A DNA stretch of 32,048 bases, taken from assembly GCA_012798935.1 (NCBI GenBank), contig JAAZMG010000024.1, forward strand, positions 1 through 32,048. The letters are read 5' to 3'. A program made the translations under genes and the position numbers. This stretch comes from Tissierellia bacterium (GTDB taxonomy: Bacteria; Bacillota; Clostridia; Tissierellales; Tepidimicrobiaceae). This document shows, piece after piece, positions 10,620 through 22,933 of the stretch. The notes under the pieces were generated by a model. That model did not search any database. It had not been told where the DNA came from and was given only the letters and a program-made list of their open reading frames with translations. Every line of letters begins with the position of its first letter. The stretch's first letter is position 1.

Positions 10620-11144
10620 ATGGAGACTTGGGAAAGAAGAAAAGAAATTTTAAAAACTTTAAATAGATCCAAAAAACCCATTAAAGGTACAGACCTTTCC
10701 CAGATGTTTGATGTTAGTAGACAAGTAATAGTTCAGGATATTGCCCTACTAAGAGCAAGAGGGGAAAATATACTGGCAACACCTCAAGGATACATAATTC
10801 CACACATATATGGAAAGAATAAGATCATTAAATCTATAGTTTGTAAACATGAAGGTTATGATCAAATAGAAGATGAGTTAAAAGCAATTATTGATATGGG
10901 GGGAAAAGCAGTAGACGTAATAGTTGAACATCCAGTATATGGAGAAATAAAAAGTCCCCTTGAGATCAGTTCTAGATTAGAATTAGAACAGTTTATGGAA
11001 AATTTAAAACAAACCAAAGCAGAACCTTTGTCTTCCTTAACAGGGGGAATACATATACACACTATAGAGGTAGAGGATGAGGAAAGTTTCAAAAAAATAA
11101 AGGAAATTTTAATGAAGAAAAAATACTTGATAAATGAAGAATAA
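10620..11144 (+). CDS. niaR: Niacin-responsive transcriptional repressor NiaR
   Basis: A 174-residue regulator with an N-terminal winged helix of the HTH_11 type (residues 5-58, including VSRQVIVQDIALLRARG) and a C-terminal 3H domain named for conserved histidines. Here they are His77 (CKHEGYD), His104 (VEHPVYG), and His145 and His147 (GIHIHTIE), which in the family bind a metal and shape the nicotinate pocket. Family members (B. subtilis YrxA) repress NAD synthesis and niacin uptake genes when nicotinate is present. ATG 10620 follows a strong AAAGGAGGG. A matching operator lies just downstream, before the permease gene, so that gene is the likely target. Confidence 0.93.
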   Translation: METWERRKEILKTLNRSKKPIKGTDLSQMFDVSRQVIVQDIALLRARGENILATPQGYIIPHIYGKNKIIKSIVCKHEGYDQIEDELKAIIDMGGKAVDVIVEHPVYGEIKSPLEISSRLELEQFMENLKQTKAEPLSSLTGGIHIHTIEVEDEESFKKIKEILMKKKYLINEE

Positions 11145-11155
11145 AATGGTATATT
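11127..11155 (+). promoter_or_regulatory. Promoter of the EIIC-like permease gene, inside the end of niaR
   Basis: TTGATA (11127-11132) and TATATT (11150-11155) are 17 bases apart, giving a predicted start near 11162. This coincides with the left edge of the palindromic operator at 11163. Confidence 0.6.
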
Positions 11156-11162
11156 TGTATAT

Positions 11163-11182
11163 ACAGGTGACAAGACACATGT
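11163..11182. promoter_or_regulatory. Probable NiaR operator
   Basis: ACAGGTGACAAGACACATGT is an imperfect palindrome: ACAGGTG and CACATGT are complementary except for one base, around ACAAGA. Its reverse complement contains the TGTCTTG core that I recall from the Bacillota NiaR motif. It covers the predicted transcription start of the permease gene and lies 19 bases after the niaR stop, which fits repression. The assignment rests on recalled motif resemblance plus position. Confidence 0.7.
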
Positions 11183-11209
11183 AAATACAAAACAAAAGAG
11201 GTGGCTCTA

Positions 11210-12238
11210 TTGGATAATAAACCAAGTAAAAAAGACACAGTAAAAGATTATTTAGTTAAGATTTTTAATGGGATGGCTTTAGGACTTTTTTCTTCATTAT
11301 TAATAGGTTTAATAATTAAACAACTAGGTACTTTTTTGAACATAGGTATAATGGTTAGATTTGGTCAAATATCTCAAATGCTTATGGGGCCTGCTATAGG
11401 AGCAGGGGTTGCTTACAGTGTAGGAGCTCCGCCCTTAGGGATTTTTGCTTCAGTAGTAACTGGAGCCATAGGAGCAGGTACTGTTACTTTTGAGGAAGGA
11501 GTTGCATTAATTAAAATAGGAGAACCAGTAGGAGCCTTTGTTGCTGGGCTTCTGGGGGCTGAATTTTCAAAGATAATAAAGGGAAAAACTAAAGTAGATA
11601 TTGTGTTAGTCCCTTTAACCACTATTATTATAGGTGGTTTAGCTGGAAATTATATAGGACCAGTTGTATCTTCTTTCATGACCCTTATTGGTAATATTAT
11701 AAATTTAGCTACAGAGCTGCAGCCTATTCCTATGGGAATAATTGTATCGGTAATAATGGGGATAGTATTAACTTTACCTATTAGTAGTGCAGCCTTGGCT
11801 ATATCTTTAGGCCTTAATGGATTAGCTGCTGGTGCTAGTACTGTAGGTTGTTGTGCTCAAATGATAGGGTTTGCAGTATGTTCCTATAGGGAAAATGGAT
11901 TTGGTGGATTTATTGCACAGGGAATAGGCACATCTATGTTACAAATTCCAAATATAATAAGAAACCCTAGAATATGGATACCCCCTATAATTACATCGGC
12001 TATCCTTGGACCTATTTCTACTACTCTATTTAAAATGGAAAGTAATATGATTGGAGCAGGGATGGGGACCAGTGGATTAGTAGGACAGTTTGCAGTAATT
12101 GAAGTTATGGGTTCTAAACTAGGAACTTTTATTAGTATAATATTAATGCATTTTATATTACCTGGAATTATTTCTTTTATTATATCGGAATGGATGAGGA
12201 AAGCAGGATATATAAAATTTGGTGATATGAAACTATAA
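11210..12238 (+). CDS. PTS EIIC-like (PTS_EIIC_2 type) membrane permease, candidate niacin-related transporter
   Basis: A 342-residue integral membrane protein with about nine or ten hydrophobic segments rich in Gly and Ala, matching the stand-alone PTS_EIIC_2 type family of Bacillota. Recognisable stretches are SVGAPPLGIFASVVTGAIGAG, the TELQPIPMGIIVSVIMGI segment and AGASTVGCCAQMIGFAVCSYREN. No EIIA or EIIB domain is fused or adjacent, so phosphotransferase sugar uptake is doubtful. I prefer TTG 11210 over GTG 11201 because AGAGGTGG (11197-11204) would overlap the latter. Its own promoter carries a NiaR-type operator, so the inferred cargo is nicotinate, nicotinamide or a related precursor. 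A hairpin ends the gene. Confidence 0.8.
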   Translation: MDNKPSKKDTVKDYLVKIFNGMALGLFSSLLIGLIIKQLGTFLNIGIMVRFGQISQMLMGPAIGAGVAYSVGAPPLGIFASVVTGAIGAGTVTFEEGVALIKIGEPVGAFVAGLLGAEFSKIIKGKTKVDIVLVPLTTIIIGGLAGNYIGPVVSSFMTLIGNIINLATELQPIPMGIIVSVIMGIVLTLPISSAALAISLGLNGLAAGASTVGCCAQMIGFAVCSYRENGFGGFIAQGIGTSMLQIPNIIRNPRIWIPPIITSAILGPISTTLFKMESNMIGAGMGTSGLVGQFAVIEVMGSKLGTFISIILMHFILPGIISFIISEWMRKAGYIKFGDMKL

Positions 12239-12324: not shown

Positions 12325-12344
12325 AAATTATAAAATTTAATATA

Positions 12345-12532
12345 TTAGCTAAGAAAGGAACTAGTAAATAACAAAGTCTTTTTAGAGAGTCAGTGGTTGG
12401 TGGAAATTGACAAGACTTATTATTGAATCCAGCCTAGAGCTATTACATTATAAGTGAACCGAAAGGTTAACTAGGGTGGCAACGCGGGAGATACTCTCGT
12501 CCCTAATATTTTAGGGATTGAGAGTTTTTTTA
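12345..12532 (+). ncRNA. T-box riboswitch controlling serS (Ser, UCC specifier)
   Basis: A classical T-box leader that senses uncharged tRNA-Ser and allows read-through into serS when charging is low. Visible parts are the Stem I AG-bulge/loop region AGAGAGTCAGTGGTTGGTGG, the specifier triplet TCC at 12428-12430 in the context GAATCCAG, the T-box core TGGCAACGCG (12476-12485) and a terminator. The terminator stem is ACTCTCGTCCCTAA (12493-12506) with TTAGGGATTGAGAGT (12511-12525), followed by seven T. The UCC codon agrees with the downstream seryl-tRNA synthetase. Confidence 0.95.
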
Positions 12533-21478: not shown

Positions 21479-22933
21479 TTATTTATTCTCTTTTAATAAT
21501 CGATCTTTTATATCCCATAATGGTTTAGATAAATCTACAAAATACTCATGAGGACTTTCAAATCTCCGTACCTCTTCCCAAAGAGTATCGATTTGTTGAC
21601 TACAATAATTTCTTATTTCATCTATAGGTGGGTTTTCATAAATACATTTTCCTTTATCAAATATTTTAACTAATAATTTTTTAGCATAGAAATTTGTTAA
21701 GGTTTTTTTCTTCCAAGTATAAAGAGGATGGAATATTTCATAGGGTTTTGTTACATCAATTTTTTCATCATGTAAGGTTACTACGTCGGCAATAGCCTTA
21801 CCAGTATTTTTATTAAACAATCTATAAAGTTGTTTAAATCCAGGAGTAGTAATCTTCCCTACATTTTCGCTGACTTTAATCTTAGGGATTATTTCTCCGT
21901 TTTCTTCAATAGCAGTTAATTTATAGACTCCTCCAAATACAGGTTCGGATCTAGCTGTAATAAGTCTTTCTCCTACACCAAAGGAATCTATTTTTGCTCC
22001 CTGGTTCAATAAGTCTCTTATTACATATTCATCTAAACTACTAGAAGCTACAATAGGACAATCTTCAAATCCAGCTTCATCCAACATCTTTCTTGATTCT
22101 TTAGATAAATATGCAATATCACCACTATCAATCCTTATACCTTTAGGTCTAAATCCCCTAGGTACTATTTCCTCATTGAAGACCTTGATTGCATTTGGAA
22201 CTCCAGAGGTTAGAACGTTATAAGTATCCACTAATAATACGCAATTATCCGGGTAAAGCTCTGCATAAGCTCTGAATGCTTCTAATTCCGTAGGAAAGAT
22301 TTGAATCCAACTATGGGCCATAGTGCCTAATGCAGGGATATTAAAATCTCTATCTACAATAGTGCAAGCAGTACCTATGGCGCCACCAATATATGCAGCT
22401 CTTGCGCCTAGTATGGCTCCTCCGTATCCTTGAGCCCGTCTTGAACCAAATTCCATTACAGGTCGTCCATCGGCAGCTCTAACTATTCTATTAGTTTTTG
22501 TTGCAATAAGACTTTGGTGGTTGATGGTAAGTAAAATCATGGTTTCAATTATTTGAGCTTGGATAATAGGTCCCTTTACTATGACTATGGGTTCACCGGG
22601 AAATATAGGAGTTCCTTCAGGAATAGCCCATACATCACATTGGAAATTAAAATTTCTTAAATAGTCTAAAAAACCTTCGCTGAACATATTTCTACTTCTA
22701 AAATATTCAATATCATCATTGGAAAATCTTAAATTCTTTAAGTATTCTATAAGTTGTTCCACCCCAGCCATTATAGCAAATCCCCCGCCATCGGGAATGG
22801 TTCTAAAAAACATATCAAAATAGGCAATTTTGTCTTCCATGCCTTTTTCAAAATATCCATTGGCCATGGTAAATTCATAGAAATCTGCTAACATAGTTAG
22901 ATTTCTCTTTTCTTTCCAGTCAATACTGTTCAT
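21479..22933 (-). CDS. pncB: Nicotinate phosphoribosyltransferase
   Basis: A 484-residue enzyme that joins nicotinate to PRPP with ATP hydrolysis, giving nicotinate mononucleotide for NAD salvage (Preiss-Handler pathway). Visible features are the N-terminal LADFYEFTMANGYFEKG, the EFGSRRAQG region (161-169), the GTMAHSWIQIFPTELEAF segment with the phosphorylated His207, and the RIDSGDIAYLSKESRKMLDEAGF phosphate-binding stretch. The length fits the longer Bacillota group. The ATG at 22933 follows AAAAGGAG. The promoter region shows no NiaR-type palindrome, unlike the permease gene at 11210, although both belong to niacin use. Confidence 0.96.
   Translation of the reverse strand: MNSIDWKEKRNLTMLADFYEFTMANGYFEKGMEDKIAYFDMFFRTIPDGGGFAIMAGVEQLIEYLKNLRFSNDDIEYFRSRNMFSEGFLDYLRNFNFQCDVWAIPEGTPIFPGEPIVIVKGPIIQAQIIETMILLTINHQSLIATKTNRIVRAADGRPVMEFGSRRAQGYGGAILGARAAYIGGAIGTACTIVDRDFNIPALGTMAHSWIQIFPTELEAFRAYAELYPDNCVLLVDTYNVLTSGVPNAIKVFNEEIVPRGFRPKGIRIDSGDIAYLSKESRKMLDEAGFEDCPIVASSSLDEYVIRDLLNQGAKIDSFGVGERLITARSEPVFGGVYKLTAIEENGEIIPKIKVSENVGKITTPGFKQLYRLFNKNTGKAIADVVTLHDEKIDVTKPYEIFHPLYTWKKKTLTNFYAKKLLVKIFDKGKCIYENPPIDEIRNYCSQQIDTLWEEVRRFESPHEYFVDLSKPLWDIKDRLLKENK

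Follow-up and report, generated by a model that had tools for sequence, protein, structure and literature searches.

What does a permease with a sugar-phosphotransferase type of fold transport when its gene directly follows niaR, the gene for a niacin-responsive repressor? The question is raised by a 32,048-nt stretch of DNA from a Tissierellia bacterium, hereafter the window. The genes around the locus are arranged in the order dnaB-like helicase, GNAT, DnaD-like, DnaC-like, niaR, permease, T-box leader and serS, with unprofiled neighbours named by reading of their ORFs; the niaR-permease intergenic gap is 56-65 nt. The analysis relies on the following features of the window:

10620..11144, plus strand: niaR, niacin-responsive repressor (Pfam HTH_11 and 3H; PDB matches; ligand-residue alignment)
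11127..11155, plus strand: predicted promoter, TTGATA-17-TATATT with TG before the -10 element (motif score, 10/12 matches)
11156..11189, no strand assigned: predicted NiaR operator with three TGT-N4-ACA type boxes (nad-operon-trained matrix, score 27.1)
11210..12238, plus strand: predicted niaY, PF13303 (PTS_EIIC_2) permease, 342 aa from TTG (Pfam; AlphaFold; Foldseek)
21479..22933, minus strand: pncB, nicotinate phosphoribosyltransferase (NCBIfam NF006695, 732.7 bits, cut-off 469; PF17767)

We infer, with a probability of roughly 0.8, that the gene at 11210-12238 encodes NiaY, a secondary, non-phosphorylating niacin importer that has an EIIC fold and is repressed by NiaR. The niacin-transporter reading is well supported but indirect, and the transporter family itself had already been predicted.

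The assignment of niaR just before the permease gene, made in the initial annotation, was borne out. Its product contains the HTH_11 and 3H domains, both above the Pfam cut-offs, and matches the solved NiaR structures 9ebr, 1j5y and 7cv0 in a PDB sequence search (E-values from 4e-45 to 7e-33). Alignment to the TmNiaR/BhNiaR residues described in PMC7713382 reveals that the metal and niacin ligands His77, Glu86, His145 and His147 are kept.

The promoter claimed at 11127-11155 is present as drawn: TTGATA (11127-11132), located within the 3' end of niaR, and TATATT (11150-11155) are separated by a 17-nt spacer, with TG preceding the -10 hexamer. This hexamer is directly abutted by the 5' edge of an array of three boxes, TGTATATACA (11156-11165), TGACAAGACA (11168-11177) and TGTAAATACA (11180-11189), which follow an exact 12-bp period and reach ~27 nt beyond the predicted start site. 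The triple-box array is unique in the window and did not appear in any of 50 first-order Markov sequences. A 20-bp palindrome had initially been placed exactly over the transcription start. The 20-mer ACAGGTGACAAGACACATGT is indeed found at 11163-11182, and its pattern, with up to two mismatches, has three matches in the 32 kb (two of them being both strands of this one site) versus 0.02 expected; however, most of it falls inside the array, so that it represents the centre of a three-box operator whose coverage is wider than the start point. The location of the array right after the -10 hexamer fits repression by blocking of RNA polymerase.

Comparison with published NiaR sites revealed both shared and distinct features. 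The outer boxes of the window fully match the type I operator TGT-N4-ACA of NiaR (YrxA) as given in PMC7713382, and the central box matches it at five of six positions; over the first 22 positions of the pneumococcal NiaR consensus TACWRGTGTMTWKACASYTRWAW as given in PMC5343564, the central 22-mer agrees at 19. The difference from the published type I operator is the presence of three phased boxes, the central one being TGACAAGACA in most relatives. The three-box site was considered as a novel operator type, and this idea was dropped: the nad operons of relatives share the 12-bp phasing, which the published 22-bp motif already implies. Overlapping operator matches spaced by 12 bp were also observed at five nad-operon loci (L260, L261, L270, L277 and L281). 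The occurrence of phased arrays at both niaY and nad promoters suggests that several NiaR dimers may bind side by side.

Conservation of the operator was assessed with a matrix trained on 18 operators of nad operons only, all from niaR-bearing genomes, a choice made to avoid circularity. The 150 nt upstream of PF13303 genes were scored, and a site was accepted at the 99% null threshold. Sites were found in 29 of the 36 close homologues adjoining niaR, whereas none was found at the 11 close homologues in genomes without any 3H gene (Fisher p = 3e-6, which overstates independence given that the species are related); the lack of conservation upstream of orthologues that would have spoken against the initial annotation is thus not observed where niaR is present. 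The same matrix gave no site at the one close homologue with niaR elsewhere in its genome, nor at any of 43 PF13303 genes that are more distant. The window operator has the top score of the set, without an equal in the shuffled null. Of the 29 site-bearing relatives, 22 have a box at -12 and 22 a box at +12 (5 or 6 of 6 positions matching); apart from the central box itself, boxes at any other offset occur at most twice. Seven niaR-adjacent relatives have no site of their own: three are genomes with a nad cluster (G034, G059 and G067; see below), and four (G047, G049, G060 and G094) contain no site recognisable by the nad-trained matrix.

On a tree of 189 sequences, sites are distributed over several separate branches (14/46 in Bacillaceae, 32/62 in the clade of the window) and are absent from the distant paralogue clade (0/14). 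A pattern scan with RGGTGACAAGACA yielded matches in 21 of 61 relatives versus three matches for the reversed control; most of them are located upstream of the permease gene, two upstream of nadA, and one within an unrelated gene (G024:C54).

Genomic context points in the same direction. Among 100 relatives surveyed, niaR lies directly 5' of the permease gene in 36 of ~49 close homologues, in line with the co-occurrence that had been anticipated. In the three nad-cluster genomes, a single strand carries the series nadA-nadB-nadC-niaR-permease, and the operator precedes nadA. A consistent association with sugar operons was not observed: neighbourhood reading of about a dozen more distant PF13303 members revealed no recurrent sugar operon. 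In two niaR-less genomes (G023, L253; G091, L255), gene-by-gene reading places the permease gene directly after the DnaC-like gene and without an operator, as if niaR and the operator had been lost together and the transporter kept. Homologues in niaR-less genomes, including those of Staphylococcus, Photobacterium and Weeksella, could move something else.

The substrate is suggested by the metabolic setting. In the host assembly (~90% complete), a search for nadA gave no hit. Since pncB is present in the window and nadA was undetected, the host is probably a niacin auxotroph that needs niacin. The expected co-occurrence of the permease with pncB extends beyond the window, with nicotinate phosphoribosyltransferases found in nearly all genomes tested. 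The canonical PncB (PF17767-type) is missing from ten homologue-bearing genomes. An NF006415 enzyme over the cut-off is present in six of these, and a more remote member in two; in the fragmented assemblies G009 (78% complete) and G097, neither type of the enzyme was found. Replacement of canonical PncB by an NF006415-type enzyme was seen at six loci (L283-L288, in G026, G029, G030, G042, G059 and G067); the copy in G042 has two stop codons within the match.

NiaR control as such leaves the substrate unfixed, because pnuC (ribosylnicotinamide) in streptococci is also NiaR-controlled according to PMC5343564. The permease might move another NAD-related compound, such as quinolinate, nicotinamide riboside or a pyridine by-product, or might serve for export, still under NiaR. 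This alternative gains from a distant homologue (L070 in G043), which, by sequence reading, follows two molybdenum-hydroxylase-like ORFs (xanthine/nicotinate dehydrogenase-like), a context with a possible link to nicotinate or purine catabolism. However, the near-universal company of nicotinate phosphoribosyltransferases and the pncB gene of the nadA-less host favour niacin itself, and repression under plentiful niacin would be a better fit to a niacin importer than to an exporter; we therefore regard another substrate or direction as unlikely.

Uptake of niacin would have to be accomplished by a protein of the EIIC type. The permease ORF (11201-12238) matches PF13303 over its full length at 356 bits (cut-off 28.9). 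The end of the gene at 12238 stands, whereas the start initially set at GTG 11201 (345 aa) does not, TTG 11210 being likelier given the ribosome-binding site AAGAGGTGG at 11196-11204. Pfam detected no second domain on the permease, EIIA and EIIB included, in agreement with its earlier description as a PTS_EIIC_2-like permease lacking these components; an EIIA/EIIB partner is neither fused nor adjacent, as the direct neighbours are niaR and serS by ORF reading. No NCBIfam model matched the permease, and a sequence search of PDB returned no relative. The AlphaFold model (mean pLDDT 92.4) describes an almost wholly helical membrane protein, and its top Foldseek matches are glucose-type PTS IIC structures (PtsG IIC and ChbC; probability 1.00, TM-score up to 0.62). 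The predicted fold is EIIC-like, and, because the top matches are glucose-type EIIC structures, elevator-type alternating access is our best guess for its mechanism. The permease shares its predicted fold with the PTS EIICs of the glucose superfamily at ~12-14% identity and differs from them by the lack of EIIA/EIIB. In a weak local alignment of low confidence, the GITE stretch of sugar EIICs corresponds to GTSMLQIPNI of the permease, conserved as GTSMLQ-PNI and devoid of Glu; tentatively, the GITE Glu seems to be missing. Niacin is not known to be a PTS substrate, and, together with the absence of EIIA/EIIB, this makes secondary transport the natural reading.

Two further explanations concern the role of the protein. 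It could be a membrane regulator or sensor rather than a carrier, similar to PfoR, a related family named for its proposed regulatory role in Clostridium perfringens; this is very unlikely, as the EIIC transporter fold is predicted with good confidence by both AlphaFold and Foldseek and Pfam finds no signalling domain on the permease. Least credible of all is a true sugar EIIC of the PTS that relies on EIIA and EIIB from other loci, a view to which the Pfam family name PTS_EIIC_2, the Foldseek matches to PtsG IIC and ChbC, and the additional PTS_EIIC score of the Bacillus halodurans member (E 1.9e-12) lend themselves, but which is disfavoured by the predicted NiaR operator, the clustering with nad genes, the absence of sugar operons from the contexts examined and, with low confidence owing to the weak alignment, the missing Glu in the GITE-equivalent stretch.

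A niacin importer under NiaR agrees with an earlier prediction. NiaP, NiaX and NiaY are listed, after Rodionov et al. 2008, as three NiaR-controlled niacin-uptake families (PMC5343564, PMC7713382, PMC6593275); NiaY, the predicted third niacin-transporter family (also cited in PMC12735969), is recorded there in five genomes of Bacilli and Clostridia. The passages on NiaY in the papers citing Rodionov et al. 2008 do not name its protein family, and the corresponding parts of the literature on NiaR and niacin uptake contain no measured NiaY transport activity.

The link between NiaY and PF13303 is provided by B. halodurans (G323), whose genome contains the published 34-bp EMSA oligo without mismatch and encodes a NiaR with a match to PDB 7cv0 along all 179 residues. 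It has a single PF13303 gene, a neighbour of ytpP, and the reverse complement of the upstream site of this gene contains the TGACAAGACA core. The PF13303 gene of B. halodurans is presumably BH3254, annotated as a 'predicted nicotinate-regulated transporter'. Because the sole PF13303 gene of this genome carries a NiaR site, and considering the presumed annotation, NiaY very likely corresponds to the PF13303 family. The window permease is likewise a PF13303 protein under a predicted NiaR operator and is about half-identical to the Bacillaceae members. The lineage and the position of the gene differ, however: in Bacillaceae, it is flanked by ytoP/ytoQ-like genes on one side and ytpP on the other, at a distance from niaR, whereas in the window it directly follows niaR. 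With NiaP and NiaX, NiaY has NiaR-regulated niacin uptake in common (PMC5343564), while the protein families, as described in the literature, are unrelated. Thus, the idea of a carrier from a non-standard family holds as to the fold and fails as to novelty, since NiaY is on record and the B. halodurans evidence indicates that it is the PF13303 family. The lp2514 protein of PMC12301409, an MFS NiaP, has no bearing on this fold.

For NiaY at this locus, we infer the following regulatory cycle. When niacin is plentiful, NiaR would bind it via the 3H domain, and the niacin-loaded repressor would sit on the three-box operator at 11156-11189, downstream of the -10 hexamer, blocking niaY transcription. 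When niacin is scarce, NiaR would be released and niaY expressed, and NiaY would bring in niacin (nicotinate and/or nicotinamide). PncB would then convert the imported nicotinate to nicotinate mononucleotide on the way to NAD. As for the broader proposal that a PTS EIIC elevator fold has been repurposed as a phosphotransfer-free carrier of an aromatic vitamin, with its gene controlled by cooperative binding of several NiaR dimers to three boxes, we consider the odds to be about even.

Niacin uptake is a recognised gap: according to PMC6593275, among predicted B3 auxotrophs from the human gut, just 25% have a member of a known B3 transporter family. To NiaY as a predicted niacin-transporter family, the present analysis adds the likely link to PF13303. 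The combination of this link with a clear operator, clean presence and absence, and a simple host context offers a straightforward uptake test. If the prediction is true, a sugar-PTS fold would be at work as a plain vitamin carrier.

Several other observations concern PF13303 proteins and the surroundings of niaY. A clade of paralogues at ~30% identity (L092, L084, L085, L088, L095 and similar loci) has no NiaR sites and occupies varied neighbourhoods. The host assembly (G000) contains a second, partial PF13303 match of 40 bits at a contig end (C33:49-258), probably a cut-off paralogue. Downstream of the permease gene, the serS-like gene is preceded by an ordinary T-box leader at 12342-12507 (Rfam RF00230, 100.6 bits).
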